Assembly: GCA_015486915.1 (NCBI GenBank)
Contig: WFQS01000146.1
Coordinates: forward strand, 1-7,797
Reading direction: 5' to 3'
Source of the DNA: Desulfobacteraceae bacterium
GTDB taxonomy: Bacteria; Desulfobacterota; Desulfobacteria; Desulfobacterales; Desulfobacteraceae
DNA: 7,797 nt
Shown here: positions 1 to 7,797 of the stretch, one piece after another
How positions within the stretch are numbered: position 1 is the stretch's first letter
Layout: each line of letters opens with the position of its first letter
Notes under the pieces: generated by a model
The model's database searches: none
What the model was told of the DNA's origin: nothing
The model's input: the letters and a program-made list of their open reading frames with translations, nothing else
Made by a program: the position numbers and the translations under genes

Positions 1-7
1 AAAAGAC

Positions 8-13
8 TATAAA
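8..13 (+). promoter_or_regulatory. candidate -10 element for the tRNA
   Basis: TATAAA lies 15 bases before the first base of the tRNA, a sensible distance for a sigma70 -10 box. The matching -35 would fall outside the window, so only half the promoter could be seen. Confidence 0.3.
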
Positions 14-28
14 TTTGTCTCGAAAAAA

Positions 29-103
29 GGGCGATTAACTCAGTGGGAGAGTGCTACCTTCACACGGTAGAAGTCACTGGTTCAAACCCAGTATCGCCCA
101 CCA
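29..103 (+). tRNA. tRNA-Val (anticodon CAC)
   Basis: A complete cloverleaf can be drawn by eye. The acceptor stem GGGCGAT (29-35) pairs perfectly with ATCGCCC (93-99). The D stem is ACTC/GAGT (38-41, 49-52). The anticodon stem CTACC/GGTAG (54-58, 66-70) encloses the loop TTCACAC, which places CAC (61-63) as the anticodon and so reads the Val codon GTG. The T stem ACTGG/CCAGT (76-80, 88-92) encloses TTCAAAC. The discriminator is A and the CCA end (101-103) is encoded in the DNA. It stands alone here, with a terminator directly downstream. No attachment-site duplication or integrase is visible in the window. Confidence 0.96.
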
Positions 104-110
104 GTAAAAT

Positions 111-150
111 AAAGGAATTAGATGGACTGATCTAATTCCTTTTATGCTTT
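111..150 (+). terminator. intrinsic terminator of the tRNA-Val gene
   Basis: AAAGGAATTAGA (111-122) pairs perfectly, 12 of 12, with TCTAATTCCTTT (131-142) around an 8-base loop, followed by a T-rich tail. It starts 8 bases after the tRNA CCA. The stem is AT-rich but long. Its symmetry means it could also work on the minus strand. Confidence 0.8.
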
Positions 151-235
151 TAGCTGCACTAAATTTTATGCACATCCTCATTTAATAAAATTTAATGAAA
201 TTTTAAAATTATTTACCTGGCTTGAAGATAAAAAA

Positions 236-1864
236 ATGCCTGATATTGTTCTGATTCAACCTCCCATTGAAGATTATTATTTCACATTTAAAAGAAGCAT
301 TCCATATGGTCTTGCCTGTATAGCTGCAGCCCTTGAAAAAAACGGCTTTTCAGTGGAAATCATTGACAGTCTTGCAGTTAACAAATCAAAAATAATTGAC
401 CCTCCGCGAGAATTTTCACACCTTGAAAAATATTATGGAACCCATGACATTTCACCGTTTTCCCTTTTTCACCATTTCCGCCATTATGGATACAGTTTTG
501 AACATATAGGAAAACTTATCAGGGAAAAAAAACCGTTTCTAACAGGAATTGCATCTCTTTTTACTCCATATTCCAACGAGGCCCTGCGTACTGCCGAAAC
601 TATTAAAAAATTTCTTCCTCACTGCAAAATAGTTATGGGAGGACATCATCCAACTGTTTTTCCTGAAAAAGTCATGGAATCGAAATATGTTGATTTTCTT
701 CTCCGGGGTGAGGGTGAAGTGTCAATGCCGGATCTTGCCCGTGCCATAAAAAATAAAACAAACCTTGAAAATATTCCGGGTATCGTATTCAGACAGAACA
801 ACGGCACCTTATTTACTGGAAAACCTGCCTGGATTGAAGACTTCAATGATTATCCCCTGCCTGACATGGATCTTATCAACAGAAAATTTTACAGACGAAA
901 ACACATAGGATGCACAGTCACAGTCACGGCAAGGGGATGCCCCATGAAATGCTCATACTGCTCAGTGGGCGCATCTTCTTCCTGTGCAAAATTCCGTGCA
1001 AGGAGTGTAGAGTCTGTCATTAAAGAGCTTGAAGCCCAGATGGAAAAGTATGACATAGGTTTTATTGATTTTGAAGATGAAAACCTGACCCTGAACAAAA
1101 ATTGGTTTCTATCCCTTGTTGAAGAAATGGAGAAATTATTTAAGAATCGTAAAATCGAGCTCAGGGCAATGAACGGACTTTTTCCTCCTTCCCTTGATGA
1201 AAAAATTGTCGCATCAATGAGAAAAGCCGGGTTTAAGACCCTGAATCTTTCACTTGGAACGACATCAAAGGCACAGCTTAAAGCATTTAAAAGACCTGAT
1301 ATAAGAAAATCTTTTGAAAAAGCCCTTTTTCTTGCGGAAAAATACTCCATGGAGGCAGTATCCTATATTATTGCATCGGCTCCTGGCCAGACAGCGTCCC
1401 AGTCTGTGAAAGATCTGCTTTTTCTTGCGGAGAGAAGGACACTTGCAGGGCTTTCAATTTATTATCCTGCACCTGGGAGCCTTGATTACACAGTTTGCAA
1501 AAATAAGGGACTTCTTCCCGGATATTTTTCCCTGATGCGTTCAACTGCTTTTCCAATTTCAGATACAACAAGTGAGCTTGAATCAGCAACCCTGCTACGT
1601 CTTGCACGGATAACAAATTTCATGAAATCAATTCTCGAAAAAGACAATAGCCTGTTGGCACCGGAACCCTTTGACAAAACCTGCATTGTCGATGTGATGG
1701 ACAGAACAACAGCAGGAAAAAAGCTTTTATCGTGGTTTCTTTATGATGGCATTATAAGGGGAATAACAAGGGATGGCCTTATTTTTGAACATCCCGCAGA
1801 AAAAAAACTTTCAGAACAGTTCATAAATGGACTGGATAAAATTTCTTTAAGGAAAGTTACCTGA
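236..1864 (+). CDS. B12-binding-domain radical SAM protein
   Basis: This is a 542-residue enzyme of the cobalamin-dependent (class B type) radical SAM superfamily. Residues 1 to about 190 look like the B12-binding Rossmann domain: an opening DIVLIQPP strand, the PYGLACIAAALEKNGF helix, GGHHPT (135-140) and the LLRGEGE turn. The radical SAM core follows with C235-x3-C239-x2-C242, which would hold the 4Fe-4S cluster that cleaves S-adenosylmethionine. About 100 C-terminal residues match nothing I recognise. Members of this superfamily methylate or rearrange unactivated carbons in lipids, pigments and natural products, but the substrate cannot be read from the sequence. The ATG at 236 is preceded by a weak GAAG at 224-227. 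A poor promoter candidate (TTTAAT 181-186, 17 bases, TAAAAT 204-209) lies upstream. There is no co-directional partner within 180 bases, so it looks monocistronic. Confidence 0.9.
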   Translation: MPDIVLIQPPIEDYYFTFKRSIPYGLACIAAALEKNGFSVEIIDSLAVNKSKIIDPPREFSHLEKYYGTHDISPFSLFHHFRHYGYSFEHIGKLIREKKPFLTGIASLFTPYSNEALRTAETIKKFLPHCKIVMGGHHPTVFPEKVMESKYVDFLLRGEGEVSMPDLARAIKNKTNLENIPGIVFRQNNGTLFTGKPAWIEDFNDYPLPDMDLINRKFYRRKHIGCTVTVTARGCPMKCSYCSVGASSSCAKFRARSVESVIKELEAQMEKYDIGFIDFEDENLTLNKNWFLSLVEEMEKLFKNRKIELRAMNGLFPPSLDEKIVASMRKAGFKTLNLSLGTTSKAQLKAFKRPDIRKSFEKALFLAEKYSMEAVSYIIASAPGQTASQSVKDLLFLAERRTLAGLSIYYPAPGSLDYTVCKNKGLLPGYFSLMRSTAFPISDTTSELESATLLRLARITNFMKSILEKDNSLLAPEPFDKTCIVDVMDRTTAGKKLLSWFLYDGIIRGITRDGLIFEHPAEKKLSEQFINGLDKISLRKVT

Positions 1865-1929
1865 TACCTCTTTATCAACTATGTCTGCATTGCAGTAAAA
1901 ACCCTATGGCATTCAACAGTTTTTTAAGA

Positions 1930-1944
1930 TAAATTCTGAATTTA
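1930..1944. promoter_or_regulatory. candidate operator palindrome upstream of the PAS kinase promoter
   Basis: TAAATTC-T-GAATTTA is a perfect 7-1-7 palindrome ending 2 bases before the candidate -35 box at 1947. That is a typical place for an activator or repressor site. It is AT-rich, so chance occurrence is possible, and no regulator is known. Confidence 0.3.
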
Positions 1945-1946
1945 CC

Positions 1947-1975
1947 TTGACACACCACAGTTATTCTATTATGGA
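1947..1975 (+). promoter_or_regulatory. candidate sigma70 promoter of the kinase/receiver operon
   Basis: A consensus -35 TTGACA (1947-1952) is followed after 17 bases by TATGGA (1970-1975), which matches TATAAT at T1, A2 and T3 only. The start codon lies about 70 bases further on. A nearby TATTAT (1967-1972) would give a spacer of only 14. The perfect -35 makes this the best promoter in the 1865-2048 gap. Confidence 0.5.
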
Positions 1976-2048
1976 TTAAAATAAGTAAATAAGTGAGGTA
2001 CCAAGCCCTACGATCAACTATATACAGCTGTTTTCAAAGGGATTCCGC

Positions 2049-3518
2049 ATGAATGAAATAAATAGTAAAAGTGACAAATATCTTATTAAAGCCATTGAAA
2101 CATTTAAACGGCAGATAGTTGTTATCTCAGATGACTATAAAATTCTTGCGTCAAGAATAAAACCAGATCATACATCCATGGAAGACAGCGAACTGAAAGG
2201 GAAAACCTGCCATCTTGCAATGTTTAACCGCAAAAATCCATGTTTTAACTGCCCTGTTGCCAGGGTGAAGCAGACAAACAGACCATCAATGAATCTTATA
2301 CATATTGATGAAGATTCAGGTGATTCTTCATGCTTATATGCATATCCCATACAGGGACCCAATGGAGATCAAAATGCAATTGTTGTTCTTGATTTTTTTC
2401 TGCCTTCCCTTGATAATTATGATGAAAAACGTTGTGCGTCAAATGCATTTCTGCGGAATCTTCTCAACAGTGCAGTTGACGGTGTGATAGCTGCAGACAT
2501 GACAGGCCAGATTATCATATTTAACGAGACTGCCACGGAAATATCTGGTTATTCAAGGAAAGAGGCCCTGGACAGTCTTAACATAAAAGACATCTACCCC
2601 GATAACGATGCCCACGTTATAATGGAAAAAATGAGATCCGATGAATACGGAAAAAAGGGGATAATAAAATCATACAGACAGACTGTTGTACGAAAGGATG
2701 GAACAACAACACCAATACTTCTTAATGCATCCACTGTTTATGAAAATGATCGTGAAATAGCAACGATTGGTGTTTTCCATGATCTTAAAGAAACAATGCG
2801 CATGGAAGCTGAACTGGAAAAAACCCAGACCCAGCTTTTGCAGTCGGAAAAAATGTCCTCCCTTGGAAAACTTGCAGCAGGCGTAGCACATCAGCTTAAT
2901 AATCCCCTTGGCAGCATAACTTTATTTTCACAGCTCATGCTTGAAGACTATGAACTTAATGAAGATGCAAAAAAGGATATTTTAAGAATTAAAAGTGATG
3001 CAGAAAGATGTACTTCCATTGTAAAAGAGCTTCTGGAATTTGCAAGACAGACAAAAAGGGGGGTAAAGCCCCACAACCTAAATAAAATTATTGCAAGAAC
3101 CCTGTTTCTGCTCCGTAATCAGGCTCTTTTTCATAACATTGAAATCATTGAGGATTATGAGGAAAGACTTCCTGACATACCTGCAGATGTTCAGCAGTTA
3201 AACCATGTTTTCATGAATATAATCCTTAATTCTGCAGATGCCATGGAAGGAAAAGGAAGGCTTGAAATCGCTACCCGTCTGAAAAAGGAACAGGAAAAAG
3301 CACTTATTAAGATATCCGATTCAGGCCCTGGAATTCCTGAAAAGACCCTTCCAAATATTTTTGAACCTTTTTTTACAACAAAGGAACAGGGAAAAGGAAC
3401 AGGACTCGGCCTCAGTATGGCCTATGGGATTATTGAAGACCATAACGGCAGTATTACAGCAAATAATCAAGATAAAGGCGGTGCTGTTTTTACCATTGAG
3501 CTGCCTTTAAAACAATAG
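2049..3518 (+). CDS. PAS-domain sensor histidine kinase with Cys-rich N-terminal sensor
   Basis: This is a 489-residue kinase with no obvious membrane segment, so probably cytoplasmic. Residues about 20-125 form a PAS-like sensor carrying C54-x10-C65-x2-C68, a pattern seen in sensors of anaerobic Deltaproteobacteria and suited to binding a metal or cluster (inferred). A canonical PAS domain spans about 134-256. The HisKA dimerisation helix carries the phospho-acceptor H281 in AHQLNNPL. The HATPase domain has the N box N390/N394, DSGPG (424-428) and GTGLGL (450-455). This NtrB-like architecture normally autophosphorylates and passes phosphate to a receiver, most simply the gene 62 bases downstream. 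One oddity is that H+1 is Gln where most HisKA kinases have Glu or Asp. The ATG at 2049 is chosen for AAAGGGA at 2036-2042. Confidence 0.92.
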
Positions 3519-3523
3519 TAGAT

Positions 3524-3563
3524 TTAACTTTACAAAAACCGTAAACTAATATTTAACGTTTTT
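3524..3563 (+). other. weak hairpin between kinase and receiver genes
   Basis: The spacer contains a stem of the type AAAAACCGTAAA against TTTAACGTTTTT, pairing at 10 of 12 positions and closed by a short CTAATA loop. It could tune relative expression of the two genes or be an RNA end point. It is AT-rich and imperfect, so support is weak. Confidence 0.2.
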
Positions 3564-3580
3564 AAAATGGAGGAGATGAT

Positions 3581-3967
3581 ATGAGTGACAAAAAAAGAAT
3601 ACTTGTTGTTGATGATGAGCCTGATTTTGCTTCAATTGTACAGACAAATCTCAAAAAAGAAGGTTTTGATGTAGAAGTAGCATATGATGGAGTGGAAGCC
3701 ATAGCAAAAGTAAAAGCAAATCCCCCGGATGCAATTGTCTTAGATGTCATGATGCCTGAAAAAGACGGTTATGAAGTATGTGCTGAGCTTAAACATGACG
3801 AAAAATACAGTGATATACCCATTGTAATGCTCACAGCTGTGGCAGATCATGTTGGATCAACCCGTTACTCACACGCAGACGGGATGAGCATGGAAGCTGA
3901 TGATTACCTTCCAAAACCTGCTTCTGCAGATGAAATCACACAAAGTGTAAAAAGTCTCGTTTCATAA
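3581..3967 (+). CDS. single-domain response regulator (receiver only)
   Basis: This 128-residue protein is a CheY-like receiver with no output domain. The acidic pair is D11/D12, the phospho-acceptor is D55 in VLDVMMP, the switch residue is T85, and the conserved Lys is K112 in LPKP. From T85 to K112 there are 27 residues, about five more than the usual 22, because the beta4-alpha4 region carries an inserted GSTRYSHADGMSME stretch. The start has an excellent ribosome site, GGAGG at 3569-3573. It is probably co-transcribed with the upstream kinase and is its likely phosphate acceptor. It could act by protein contact, as a phosphorelay shuttle, or as a sink. A terminator hairpin starts 13 bases after the stop. 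Confidence 0.93.
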   Translation: MSDKKRILVVDDEPDFASIVQTNLKKEGFDVEVAYDGVEAIAKVKANPPDAIVLDVMMPEKDGYEVCAELKHDEKYSDIPIVMLTAVADHVGSTRYSHADGMSMEADDYLPKPASADEITQSVKSLVS

Positions 3968-3979
3968 ATTTTTCTTAAA

Positions 3980-4032
3980 AACCCGGAACCATTGATAAGA
4001 AAATGTTCCGGGTTCTTATCTCTTTGTTTAAT
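3980..4032 (+). terminator. intrinsic terminator of the kinase/receiver operon
   Basis: AACCCGGAAC (3980-3989) pairs perfectly with GTTCCGGGTT (4005-4014), 10 base pairs around a 15-base loop, followed by a T-rich tail. A second stem is possible between GATAAGAA (3994-4001) and TTCTTATC (4013-4020). It uses two bases of the first stem and its 5' arm lies in the first stem's loop, so the two folds compete. Confidence 0.75.
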
Positions 4033-4034
4033 TC

Positions 4035-4293
4035 AAGCTCAGCCCCATGGCCGTTTTTTTATAAGAGAGAGCTCATTTTTGATAAATGAACAAGTACTCT
4101 TTCTATGTTCGTCAAAATCTCTGTTTTTTTGAGGCGCTGTAACGCAGTTCAGATCGGCCTCATGGCCGTTATAAGAAACTCTCGTTAAATTTCTTTAAAA
4201 ATAAGAGTTGACTTCGCGTCTACGGCTCATTTTTTCAGAATCTTTGAGTCTTTGAGGCCATCTGAGAGCCTCAAGATCGGCCAGATGGTCGTT
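4035..4293. repeat. three diverged copies of a GGCC-hairpin intergenic repeat
   Basis: A core of the form CGGCC-nnAT-GGCCG followed by TT occurs three times. Copy A is at 4040-4053 (CAGCC/GGCCG, one A-C mismatch), copy B at 4155-4168 (perfect, loop TCAT) and copy C at 4278-4291 (CGGCC/GGTCG, loop AGAT, with a G-T wobble replacing G-C). Copy starts are 115 and 123 bases apart. Other shared words appear in the same order: ATAAGA (4061, 4171), GCTCATTTTT (4071, 4225), TTTGAGGC (4128, 4251) and AGATCGGCC (4151, 4274). This looks like a decayed tandem array of roughly 120-base units. No open reading frame of note overlaps it. Copy A is followed by seven T residues and could itself terminate transcription. 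Confidence 0.6.
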
Positions 4294-4322
4294 ATTTAAT
4301 AAATCCATATTTTTCATTAATT

Positions 4323-4350
4323 AAAAACAGTCTTAAGAAATGCTGTTTTT
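4323..4350. terminator. A/T-flanked hairpin, possible bidirectional terminator
   Basis: AAAAACAG (4323-4330) pairs perfectly with CTGTTTTT (4343-4350) around a 12-base loop that contains the palindrome TCTTAAGA. The A run on one side and T run on the other suit termination in either direction. It sits between the repeat array and the AroE-like gene's promoter region. The stem has only two G-C pairs, so termination may be weak. Confidence 0.4.
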
Positions 4351-4383
4351 ATCCATTGCACTTACAATAGTACCATTACAGCA

Positions 4384-4412
4384 TTTACTTTTTGCACTGC
4401 AACTCTTACTAT
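4384..4412 (+). promoter_or_regulatory. candidate promoter of the AroE-like/kinase operon
   Basis: TTTACT (4384-4389) and TACTAT (4407-4412) each match the sigma70 boxes at four of six positions, with a 17-base spacer, about 30 bases before the start codon. The spacer carries the small palindrome TTGCA-C-TGCAA (4392-4402), which could be a regulator site. Confidence 0.35.
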
Positions 4413-4441
4413 TTTTTTAACCTTACTTGAAAGTATAAAAT

Positions 4442-5260
4442 ATGAAAGTATTCTGCATACTAAGTGATGAAAGGGTGTTCAGGTCAAAATCGCCTGCCAT
4501 TTTTACCCATGTTTTCAAGCGAATCGGTATAGACAGCATTTATGTACCCTTTAAAGTGATGCCCGGGGACATAGGTCCTGCCATGCAGTCCCTGAAAACA
4601 TTAAATATTGATGGTGCAAATATTACAGTTCCCTACAAGGAATCGGTGCTGCCTTATATGAATATCCTGTCGGAAGGAGCAAAGATTGTCGGGGCGGTAA
4701 ATACCATTATCCGTCATGGTGATCAATTAAAAGGCTACAATACAAACGCAATAGGTTTTATGCATACTCTTGAGGAAGCAGGCTTTGATGTTGCTGAAAA
4801 AACTGCCCTAGTGTTTGGTACGGGAGGTGTTGCAAGGGCAGTTGTATTTATTTTAAACTGGCTGAGTGCAGGTTCTGTTACCATTGCAGGCCGCACAAAA
4901 GAACACATAAGCAGAATTACCGAAAAAAGCGGGGGTAAAGCAAAGGAGATATCGACATTTGATGACAAACCATTTTCTGCAAATATTGTTGTTAACACCA
5001 CATCTGTTTCAAGTGAAGAGGAATCACCGGAATTTGCACAGATCATCGGTAAACTTGATTTAAAAGACTGTGAACTTATCGTGGACTTCAACTATGGCCG
5101 CAAAAATAACTTCTGGCGAAATACGGCTGAAAAAAAAGGAATCAAATTTATAAACGGATTTACCCCCCTTGCCCATTCTGCAAGACAGATTCTTTTACTG
5201 TGGACAAAGATTGATGTCGGCCCCGAGGAATTTATAAAAGCCATAAAAGAAAATATTTAG
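4442..5260 (+). CDS. shikimate dehydrogenase (AroE)-family protein with altered catalytic residue
   Basis: The 272-residue length equals the usual AroE length. AroE reduces 3-dehydroshikimate to shikimate with NADPH in aromatic amino acid synthesis. Family marks seen: SKSP near residue 16 (shikimate binding), N60-I-T-V-P-Y-K66 with the catalytic Lys, VGAVNT, the nucleotide-binding turn GTGGVARA, and GRT, which fits NADP. Two departures stand out. The usual NTD is NTN, with N102 where the catalytic Asp should be. The conserved Gln near the C-terminus, aligned on the following LLW, appears to be S246. The start ATG fits the family; the ribosome site is weak. It is not beside other aromatic-pathway genes but 31 bases before a sensor kinase. 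It could be a working AroE variant, a quinate/shikimate-type relative, or a binding protein. Family assignment is firm; AroE activity is uncertain. Confidence 0.85.
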   Translation: MKVFCILSDERVFRSKSPAIFTHVFKRIGIDSIYVPFKVMPGDIGPAMQSLKTLNIDGANITVPYKESVLPYMNILSEGAKIVGAVNTIIRHGDQLKGYNTNAIGFMHTLEEAGFDVAEKTALVFGTGGVARAVVFILNWLSAGSVTIAGRTKEHISRITEKSGGKAKEISTFDDKPFSANIVVNTTSVSSEEESPEFAQIIGKLDLKDCELIVDFNYGRKNNFWRNTAEKKGIKFINGFTPLAHSARQILLLWTKIDVGPEEFIKAIKENI

Positions 5261-5291
5261 TTTCACATTTACACCGAGGAGATAAAAAACA

Positions 5292-6803
5292 ATGGATATT
5301 CTTGACCCGGAAAAAATTATTGTCATTGATGATGAGCAGAATTTGAGAGAAGGTGCAAAACGGATACTTTCCAGGATGGATTTCACTGTTTTTCTTGCGC
5401 CAACCGGCGATGCAGGCCTTGAAATCATTGAAAAAGAGCCCGTTGGTATTGTTCTTCTTGATATGAAAATGCCCGGTATGCCCGGTATGGAGGTCCTGAA
5501 AAACATCATGGCCATGGAAAGGGGCATCATTGTCATTGTTATTACCGGTTATGCCACCATTGAAACCGCCATCGAAGCCATGAAAATAGGTGCATACGAT
5601 TTTATACCCAAACCATATGAGCCTGATCAGCTGCGTATTATTGTAAGTCGTGCAAGGGACTCTATAAAGCTTAAGCAGAAAGCGGACAGGCTTGCTGAAA
5701 AGCAGAAAAGAACACTTGCCGATCTCCATACGGAAAAAAGCAGAATTTCAACAATAATAAATTCCCTTCCAAACGGAGTTCTTGTAACCGATACCAAAGG
5801 GATAGTTGTCCTGATAAATCCGACTTTCTATCAGCAGCTTGATATTGATTCTGCCATTGGAATCGGTAAATCAATTGATCAATATATTGATGATAAAGAT
5901 CTTATCAATCTTGTCATGGATATTTCCAGGGGAAAATACATCGATTATAACGATATACCTTCCCATGAATTAAATATTAATAATGAAAAATTCTTTCTCA
6001 CCAAATGCAGGCCCATACTTGGCGAAAGACATGAGTGCCTTGGTACGGTTATGAACATCGTTGATATTTCAGCCATAAAAGCCCTTGACAACCTTAAATC
6101 GGAATTTATGGCAAAGGTATCCCACGAGTTGAGATCCCCCCTTTCAACCATACATGAACAGCTTGCAATGGTGGTAAAGAGCATGAGCAATGAAATGGCC
6201 GAAGATGATCAGTATATGCTTGCAAGGGCAAAGGAAAAAACCCTTGGATTAATTTCCACAGTCGGCGATCTATTGGATCTGTCCCGCATTGAAGCGGAAA
6301 TGTCAGTAAAAGAACTTGTACCGATTCAGATTGACGATCTTCTAAAAAATATTGTGGATTTTTTAAGAACAAGGGCCGAAACAAAAAAACAGACGATTTC
6401 CCTTACAATTCCCGACTCCCCCCTGCCCGCAATGGAGGCTGATCTTACGACCATGGAAAGTGTTTTCGGCAATCTTATAACCAATGCAATCAACTACACA
6501 CAGGAAGGCGGAGAAATAAAAGTTTCTGCAGATATGGCAGGAAATAACATACGGGTAAAGGTGGCTGACAACGGTTTTGGCATTGAGTCAAAACACATGG
6601 ACAAAATATTTAAAAGATTCTACAGGGTAAAAAACGATAAAACCCGCTTTATCACGGGCACTGGATTAGGACTTCCCATTGTAAAGGGTATTATTGATTC
6701 CATTGGAGGATATATTGACGTTAAAAGTGAAGTAAACAAAGGAACTACATTTACCGTTCTTCTGCCTTTAAAAAAACCGGCTGTTTCTTCAGCACCCGTG
6801 TAG
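5292..6803 (+). CDS. receiver-PAS-histidine kinase (REC-PAS-HisKA-HATPase)
   Basis: This 503-residue cytoplasmic kinase has its receiver at the N-terminus. REC spans about 8-120, with D13/D14, phospho-acceptor D57 in LLDMKMP, T85 and K107 at normal spacing, and resembles NtrC-type receivers. A charged helical linker (about 120-150, likely coiled coil) leads to a PAS domain (about 151-262). HisKA carries H278 in SHELRSPL with the normal H+1 Glu. HATPase has N394/N398, DNGFG (426-430) and TGTGLGL (455-461). The receiver is presumably phosphorylated by another kinase and so modulates this one, or accepts back-transfer. No output domain is present. GAGGAGAT at 5276-5283 supports the ATG at 5292. 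The 31-base gap to the AroE-like gene suggests one operon. I see no clear terminator in the 144 bases that follow. Confidence 0.93.
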   Translation: MDILDPEKIIVIDDEQNLREGAKRILSRMDFTVFLAPTGDAGLEIIEKEPVGIVLLDMKMPGMPGMEVLKNIMAMERGIIVIVITGYATIETAIEAMKIGAYDFIPKPYEPDQLRIIVSRARDSIKLKQKADRLAEKQKRTLADLHTEKSRISTIINSLPNGVLVTDTKGIVVLINPTFYQQLDIDSAIGIGKSIDQYIDDKDLINLVMDISRGKYIDYNDIPSHELNINNEKFFLTKCRPILGERHECLGTVMNIVDISAIKALDNLKSEFMAKVSHELRSPLSTIHEQLAMVVKSMSNEMAEDDQYMLARAKEKTLGLISTVGDLLDLSRIEAEMSVKELVPIQIDDLLKNIVDFLRTRAETKKQTISLTIPDSPLPAMEADLTTMESVFGNLITNAINYTQEGGEIKVSADMAGNNIRVKVADNGFGIESKHMDKIFKRFYRVKNDKTRFITGTGLGLPIVKGIIDSIGGYIDVKSEVNKGTTFTVLLPLKKPAVSSAPV

Positions 6804-6882
6804 AAATAGTGTTTTTATTACCTGATTTTCAAATGGTGTGGAATAACGGCAACAGCTTACCAGGAATAATTTTCCGATCCCA

Positions 6883-6931
6883 AAAAATTATAAATTTTTA
6901 AGTTGACATCATTCATTAATATGTTTAACAT
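6883..6931 (+). promoter_or_regulatory. promoter of the metal-sensor/efflux operon
   Basis: A perfect -35 TTGACA (6903-6908) is followed after 17 bases by TAACAT (6926-6931), which matches TATAAT at four positions. Just upstream, AAAAATT-ATA-AATTTTT (6883-6899) is an AT-rich palindrome in the place of an UP element. The -10 box lies inside the operator palindromes. Confidence 0.65.
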
Positions 6932-6946
6932 ATGAACAAATGTTCA
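6919..6946. promoter_or_regulatory. ArsR/SmtB-type operator, two adjoining palindromes
   Basis: TGAACA-AA-TGTTCA (6933-6946) is a perfect 6-2-6 palindrome and matches the TGAACA...TTCA form of known SmtB/CzrA operators. It adjoins, sharing one base, a second perfect palindrome, ATATGTT-T-AACATAT (6919-6933). Together they cover the -10 box and the likely transcription start, which suits repression by the downstream ArsR-family protein, released by metal. The operator role is inferred from form and position. Confidence 0.65.
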
Positions 6947-6962
6947 ATTGAAGAGGTGTTAT

Positions 6963-7310
6963 ATGGATGATATATGTCAGATAAAATGTATTGATAAGAA
7001 AAAAGTGAACCGCACACTTGAATCAATGCCGGATTATGAGGTAATAGCCCGGATGGCGGATATATTCAAGGTGCTCAGTGACCCTTCCAGGCTCAAAATT
7101 GTTCTTGCTCTGCTGGACTGCGAACTTTGCGTTTGCGACATTGCAGCTGTATGCGGACAAACAGATTCTGCTATTTCCCACCAGCTTCGGATTCTCAGGA
7201 CATTAAAGATTGTTAAAAACCGGCGCATGGGAAAAAGCGTCTTTTATACAATTGACGACGACCATGTTACAGCGCTTATTTCCATGAGCCTTGAACATGT
7301 AAATCATTAA
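6963..7310 (+). CDS. ArsR/SmtB-family metal-sensing repressor (CadC/CzrA-like)
   Basis: This 115-residue winged-helix repressor appears to have both classic metal sites of the family. The alpha3N-type site has C5 and C9 (same C-x3-C spacing as CadC) plus ELCVCD with C56 and C58; C53 is an extra nearby Cys. The alpha5-type site reads D99-x-H101-x10-H112-x2-H115, matching the CzrA pattern, with H115 the last residue. The recognition helix region is TDSAISHQLRILR. Cd, Pb, Zn or Co are plausible ligands; which one cannot be told. The ATG at 6963 is chosen over an in-frame TTG at 6948 because AGAGGTG (6952-6958) sits at proper distance from the ATG and inside the longer version. It probably represses its own promoter and the efflux permease 11 bases downstream. 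Confidence 0.92.
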   Translation: MDDICQIKCIDKKKVNRTLESMPDYEVIARMADIFKVLSDPSRLKIVLALLDCELCVCDIAAVCGQTDSAISHQLRILRTLKIVKNRRMGKSVFYTIDDDHVTALISMSLEHVNH

Positions 7311-7321
7311 AGGATTAAAAA

Positions 7322-7783
7322 ATGAATATCGTATATAAAGTATTAAATTCATCATGGGATATTTATCTTGACGTTGCAGCCTACATGCTGTTCGGTTTTC
7401 TCATAGCCGGCATCATATATGTTTTTTTCAAAGCAGATAAAATCAGAAAATACCTTGGTACAGGTAAAATAAAACCGGTTATACTTTCAGCTTTATTCGG
7501 CATTCCCATTCCCCTGTGTTCCTGCGGGGTAGTTCCGGTTGCAGCAGGATTAAAAAAACAGGGAGCAAACAGTGGAGCTGCCCTTGCATTTATGATTGCG
7601 ACCCCTGAATCAGGTGTTGATTCAATTGCTGTTTCATGGGCAATTCTTGACCCTATAATGACTGTCATACGTCCAGTTGCAGGGTTTATTACAGCCATTG
7701 CAACGGGGATTATCCAGAACTTTTTCGGTATTGAAGACAGGGTAAATGCAGAGCTTCCCCATGCACAGGAAGCTAAAGGTTGA
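7322..7783 (+). CDS. SO_0444-like (DUF318) Cu/Zn efflux permease, N-terminal half ending at in-frame TGA
   Basis: The 153 residues before TGA match the first half of the SO_0444-type metal efflux permeases: PLCSCG (C66, C68), GLKKQGANSGA, and ATPESGVDS (E96, D100), then PIMTVIRP. Hydrophobic segments lie near 14-36, 50-75, 84-105 and 108-132. Full-length family members are roughly twice this long, with a Cys-rich cytoplasmic linker between two membrane halves, so the second half is missing if TGA is a stop. The stop falls after a hydrophilic stretch (NAELPHAQEAKG), where that linker should begin. Reading on gives Gly-Cys-Ser-Ser until the window ends. It may be a selenoprotein, a truncated gene or a split gene. 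TAAAGGA (7308-7314), overlapping the repressor's stop, is the ribosome site, so the two genes form an operon. Metal specificity is inferred from the family. Confidence 0.8.
   Translation: MNIVYKVLNSSWDIYLDVAAYMLFGFLIAGIIYVFFKADKIRKYLGTGKIKPVILSALFGIPIPLCSCGVVPVAAGLKKQGANSGAALAFMIATPESGVDSIAVSWAILDPIMTVIRPVAGFITAIATGIIQNFFGIEDRVNAELPHAQEAKG
7781..7783 (+). other. in-frame TGA, possible selenocysteine codon
   Basis: TGA is codon 154 of the permease frame and the next four complete codons give Gly-Cys-Ser-Ser, so a Sec would sit in a Sec-Gly-Cys motif in the metal-binding linker. Only 14 bases follow in the window, too few to test for the hairpin (bacterial SECIS) that selenocysteine insertion requires. 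Ordinary termination remains possible. Confidence 0.45.
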
Positions 7784-7797
7784 GGCTGTTCTTCAAC

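Follow-up and report, generated by a model that had tools for sequence, protein, structure and literature searches.

An in-frame TGA in an SO_0444-family metal permease gene of a Desulfobacteraceae bacterium is very likely a selenocysteine codon

Does a TGA at the end of a contig terminate a metal permease, or does it encode selenocysteine (Sec) in an exporter that continues beyond the contig? The question is raised by 7,797 nt of DNA from a Desulfobacteraceae bacterium (GenBank assembly GCA_015486915.1, contig WFQS01000146.1, positions 1 to 7,797, forward strand), the whole of which is called the window here. A permease gene on the forward strand starts with an ATG at 7322, stays open for 153 codons and meets a TGA at 7781–7783, codon 154. 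After this TGA there are 14 nt, GGC TGT TCT TCA AC (7784–7797), and the window ends. A first-pass annotation of the same DNA had described an SO_0444-like permease, intact up to codon 154 and with the frame running on as GGC TGT TCT TCA, and had proposed the TGA as a selenocysteine candidate. The same letters are read here. We consider it very likely that this TGA encodes Sec in a soft-metal exporter of the SO_0444 type, with a CadC-like regulator alongside and with read-through driven by a SECIS element. Read-through in the window's own organism is what we infer from its relatives: the codons at the TGA column, the hairpin that follows, the sel genes of kin genomes, and the second half of the gene in the nearest genome.

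Profile comparison agrees with the family assignment given by the annotation. The open part of the gene (7322–7780) encodes the first half of an SO_0444-family permease and matches the NF033936 profile (SO_0444 family Cu/Zn efflux transporter) with 186.2 bits (E 8.9e-55) over profile positions 1–132 of 351, a score below the curated cut-off of 300 bits for the whole protein. The near-identical gene of G001, the nearest genome among those searched, has both halves and scores 368.1 bits, above that cut-off. The fragment also matches Pfam ArsP_1 (89.7 bits). The motif IPLCSCG occupies residues 63–69; its Cys66 and Cys68, the CSC motif in the first half of NF033936 family members, are invariant across 57 aligned proteins. 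The SaoE efflux transporter (NF040736) belongs to a different family and is a weaker match, at 100.6 bits against a cut-off of 325; the SO_0444 profile scores far higher for the window half.

Growth of Shewanella oneidensis under stress from Zn or Cu requires SO_0444, the namesake of the family, whose part in Cu/Zn efflux was established by mutant fitness and complementation (PMC3219624). The accessible part of that paper does not describe SO_0444 as a selenoprotein, and SO_0443, which regulates it, is a putative orthologue of ZntR, unlike the ArsR type found in the window. A homologue of SO_0444 is induced by Cd and Cu (PMC10092412, in its accessible part). A 2026 review (PMC13188914), as far as its text was accessible, treats SO_0444 NF033936 as a selenoprotein with the motif UxC and one Sec, annotated in GenBank, with WP_014809615.1 as the example. 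This Sec form is of the same family as the window gene and has an in-frame Sec in a U-x-C motif, which in the window would read U-G-C. The window gene is thus probably a further example of a known selenoprotein family and not of a new kind. The proposal of a Sec-containing metal exporter is supported, but it is less novel than the annotation supposed, the selenoprotein status of the family having been published in that review.

What do relatives carry at the position of the TGA? The window was aligned jointly with 110 loci, of which 30 are genes from a search of kin genomes and 80 are loci from named genomes (the best 80 of 590). The kin search covered 58 genomes, 56 of which had a match and 33 a match above the NF033936 cut-off; the 30 genes read are a set that leaves out the single-TGA genes of G019 (second copy), G025 and G024. 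The column of the window's TGA holds TGA in 25 of the 110 loci, or 23 distinct relatives once two duplicates are set aside, and Cys in 79, which bears out the earlier statement that the TGA stands at a Cys-like position. Among the kin genes, 17 of 30 have a linker TGA, exactly in the window column in 15; the corresponding numbers for the best 80 of 590 named-genome loci are 11 and 10, and these linker-TGA loci come mostly from Desulfobacula, Desulfotignum or Desulfobacteraceae/Desulfobacterales. Taken together there are 28 linker-TGA genes, 26 of them distinct after removal of two duplicates, with 23 in the column. The commonest motif is Gly-Gly-Sec-Gly-Cys (GG-U-GC), and the window context AAA GGT TGA GGC TGT, which would read Lys-Gly-Sec-Gly-Cys-Ser-Ser, is of the same kind. 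In three loci (L012, L013 and L111) the linker TGA comes about four residues ahead of the window column, at which an intact Cys-x-Cys stands.

A global reassignment of TGA, for example to Trp or Gly, would also leave an in-frame TGA of this sort. We regard this as extremely improbable: at the homologous position 104 of the 110 aligned loci have either Cys or TGA, and in four of ten TGA-bearing relatives examined (L012, L016, L017 and L028) the same gene also ends with TGA. Equally improbable is a naturally split transporter, in which the first half would end at the TGA and the second half would be a separate protein. Such a design has some appeal in a family built of two alike halves, both of which in G001 match the window half. 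In the TGA-bearing relatives that were read through, however, the second half comes directly past the column with no change of frame. The same is true of the Cys gene of G001, whose frame carries the second membrane half, as the annotation had expected of the intact gene; in so close a genome this speaks against a naturally split design.

In a bacterial selenoprotein gene a hairpin is expected shortly after the TGA, and the window stops short of the place of its loop. The relatives do have such a structure after their linker TGAs, with a loop of 3–4 nt that contains a G and starts 18–24 nt downstream. Both the spacing and the G in the loop agree with the published pattern of bacterial SECIS elements. 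Compared with codon-preserving shuffles, the hairpin reaches p<0.05 in 13 of the 26 linker-TGA genes (mean z 1.89), against 2 of 130 stretches taken elsewhere in the same genes (mean z -0.09) and 2 of 24 Cys homologues (mean z 0.35). The G-loop hairpin that the annotation suggested looking for is therefore present in TGA homologues as a property of the group, the other 13 of the 26 genes falling short of p<0.05, and the pooled p of 2e-10 overstates the independence of related sequences. The four pairs nearest the loop are formed in 26 of 26 genes, a count from loops placed for the best stem. Pair 4 is C-G in 11 genes, G-C in 11 and A-T in four, which are compensatory changes, and pair 5 is formed in 20 of 26, with three pair types. 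Because loops of 3–4 nt were placed for the best stem, four of them by hand (L017, L028, L052 and L053), these counts lean towards pairing; the change of pair type at one position is beyond what loop placement alone explains. A test of whole-fold energy separates the groups modestly (mean z -0.98 for the 26 TGA genes against -0.27 for the 24 Cys genes), and the hairpin-specific test is the sharper of the two.

The closest comparison counts against the Sec reading. G001 (88% complete, in 320 contigs) is 96.7% identical to the window in DNA over 4342–7797 and 96.1% over 1823–4026, and its protein is 96% identical to the window permease over 158 residues. Where the window has TGA, G001 has TGT (Cys). 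From there the G001 gene stays open across the second half as far as the end of the G001 contig; the Gly-Cys-Ser-Ser continuation after the codon is identical in both. Could the window TGA be a recent nonsense mutation, or a base-call or assembly error, in an otherwise Cys gene? At the column, the three proteins nearest to the window permease (G001, P0021 and P0024) all have Cys. The TGA is 14 nt from the window end, and assembly errors gather at contig ends; it also stands beside two further differences from G001, the three falling within 8 nt (7776–7783). The place of the stop tells against such an accident. If the observed part is given Cys at codon 154, 58 single-base changes would yield a stop of any kind and only one of them gives TGA at that codon; a stop would thus arise there by chance about once in 58 cases. 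At this very column 23 distinct relatives have TGA. Weighing these points, we think a mutation or error unlikely, and Sec remains the preferred reading of the window TGA.

The Cys gene of G001 has a hairpin of its own, with the loop AGTT at +24 and six pairs; taken alone it is not significant (p 0.21), and it may be a relic SECIS. As for the database proteins, the letter U is absent from all 121 protein records (120 database records and the translation P0001), and the C recorded in P0021 or P0024 may have been written for U. In the tree the window's group takes in G001 and P0021 first (support 100/96) and P0024 next (100/100). Over its 58 rows, linker TGA and Cys must have replaced each other 11 times, at least five of these changes being forced by well-supported branches, so the two swap often in the linker; the tree does not tell a TGA retained in the window from a newly gained one. 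By our own reading of it, one Sec gain and two Cys replacements would be equally short histories for the window's small clade.

Is Sec decoded in this group of bacteria? Of the sel genes that the annotation had named, three are found in most kin genomes: selA above cut-off in 57 of 58, selB in 51 and tRNA-Sec in 45, the tRNA count resting on at most 60 candidates scored per genome. G001 departs from this. Its selA and selD were found, but neither selB nor tRNA-Sec was above cut-off in its 320 contigs, a point in favour of a mutation or error in the window. At 88% completeness and in so many contigs, this absence is weak evidence. Moreover, the selD of G001 itself has an in-frame TGA, in a context placed by eye as Ser-Gly-TGA-Ala-Ala-Lys, which favours the Sec reading in the closest kin. 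The sel set of G001 may reflect an incomplete assembly or an early loss of Sec decoding. One end of its contig C153 weakly matches the start of selB; this candidate was rejected, as the contig looks like an EF-Tu operon with its tRNAs.

Directly upstream of the permease, at 6963–7310 on the same strand, is a gene for an ArsR/SmtB-family metalloregulator of 115 aa, which is CadC-like, having an N-terminal Cys pair (DICQIKC) and the metal-site motif ELCVCD. Because the regulator ends at 7310, 11 nt before the permease ATG at 7322, the two look like one operon. Run on a 120-aa frame from 6948, the regulator scores 89.6 bits against HTH_metalloreg NF033788 (cut-off 55). It aligns with solved SmtB (E 1.8e-21) and, by residues 3–113 to 5–115, over near-full length with CadC (1u2w, a Cd efflux system accessory protein; E 1.6e-17), the stretch of the N-terminal Cys pair included. 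The metal site of CadC is made of four Cys, and roles as metal ligands are known for its cysteines. The ArsR fold, a CVC(D/E) metal site and the N-terminal Cys pair are all present in the window regulator; by score it is nearer to SmtB and Lmo1102 than to CadC, and a CadC-like metal specificity is putative. A homology search found ArsR homologues in the flanks of 76 of the 110 loci and 20 of the 28 linker-TGA loci, some of these flanks being short. The strict ELCVCD-type motif matched a regulator in three linker-TGA loci only, and most read EHCVCD.

How might such an exporter work? An AlphaFold model of the related protein P0021, made with 56 homologues, has a mean pLDDT of 78.8 and a pTM of 0.78. 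Its helices break near IPLCSCG (gap 61–66) and near YVCATS (gap 232–237), and the linker 143–166, which holds residues 154 and 156, is of low confidence and, on this model, probably disordered. A Foldseek search of the PDB with the P0021 model gave no match at E<=0.001 (best 0.053), nor did a profile search of PDB sequences for the permease give any at E 0.01; therefore no solved template stands behind the mechanism we propose. In that mechanism, entry of a soft metal, presumably of the Cd, Zn, Pb or Cu class, would release the operon from its CadC-like repressor. A SECIS hairpin just beyond the window end, together with the SelB and tRNA-Sec supplied by a host of Desulfobacteraceae type, would drive read-through of the TGA. 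The flexible Sec-Gly-Cys linker could then capture the metal and pass it on for export to the Cys residues of IPLCSCG and YVCATS, where the helices are broken.

The family has a second TGA site, at which TGA takes the place of the first cysteine of IPLCSCG in 12 loci: three of the 30 kin genes (L016, L027 and L029) and nine of the 80 named-genome loci (L058, L073, L085, L090, L093, L098, L114, L126 and L129). Four loci, L016, L027, L029 and L058, have both TGAs. The hairpin after the membrane-site TGA reaches p<0.05 in 7 of 12, against 8 of 92 Cys genes, in a test that left out three loci without the motif and three duplicates. The membrane site is less known than the linker Sec. The accessible text of PMC13188914 gives one Sec without saying whether it is the linker U-G-C or the membrane U-S-C, and the window copy is incomplete. 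The part of the SO_0444 literature that was covered yielded no two-Sec form, and a paper search aimed at a two-Sec efflux transporter turned up nothing pertinent by its listing. As a tentative reading, to which we give slightly less than an even chance, selenium may sit at one of two soft-metal stations or at both of them, these being U-G-C in the linker and IPL-U-SCG at the helix break in the membrane. Sec and Cys would replace each other at both, in the linker repeatedly and even from one genome to another of nearly the same species (TGA in the window against TGT in G001, with its possible relic SECIS), and the double-Sec form of 4 of the 110 loci would relay soft metal to export by way of two selenium residues.

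These observations bear on annotation and on experiment. Gene prediction cuts selenoprotein transporters of this kind in half at the TGA. The window and G001 are likely a natural Sec/Cys pair, 96–97% identical in DNA, on which one could measure directly what a soft-metal exporter gains from selenium. With the membrane TGA site and the double-TGA relatives, it becomes testable whether selenolate serves as a metal ligand in transport.

Some further features of the window were recorded. A search of viral contigs gave no relative, and the genomes and contigs searched, in a listing of the best 80 loci from which records of the window's own genome may be missing, contained no longer version of its contig. 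An Rfam scan of the window gave a tRNA and nothing else: tRNA-Val (anticodon CAC), at the window start (29–103). Three window segments, 441–663, 1008–1822 and 4027–4341, are unmatched in contig C228 of G001, which is colinear with the window elsewhere. The first two of these gaps cut a gene of 542 aa at 236–1864, a radical SAM protein by its appearance to the eye, which seems to be broken in G001.
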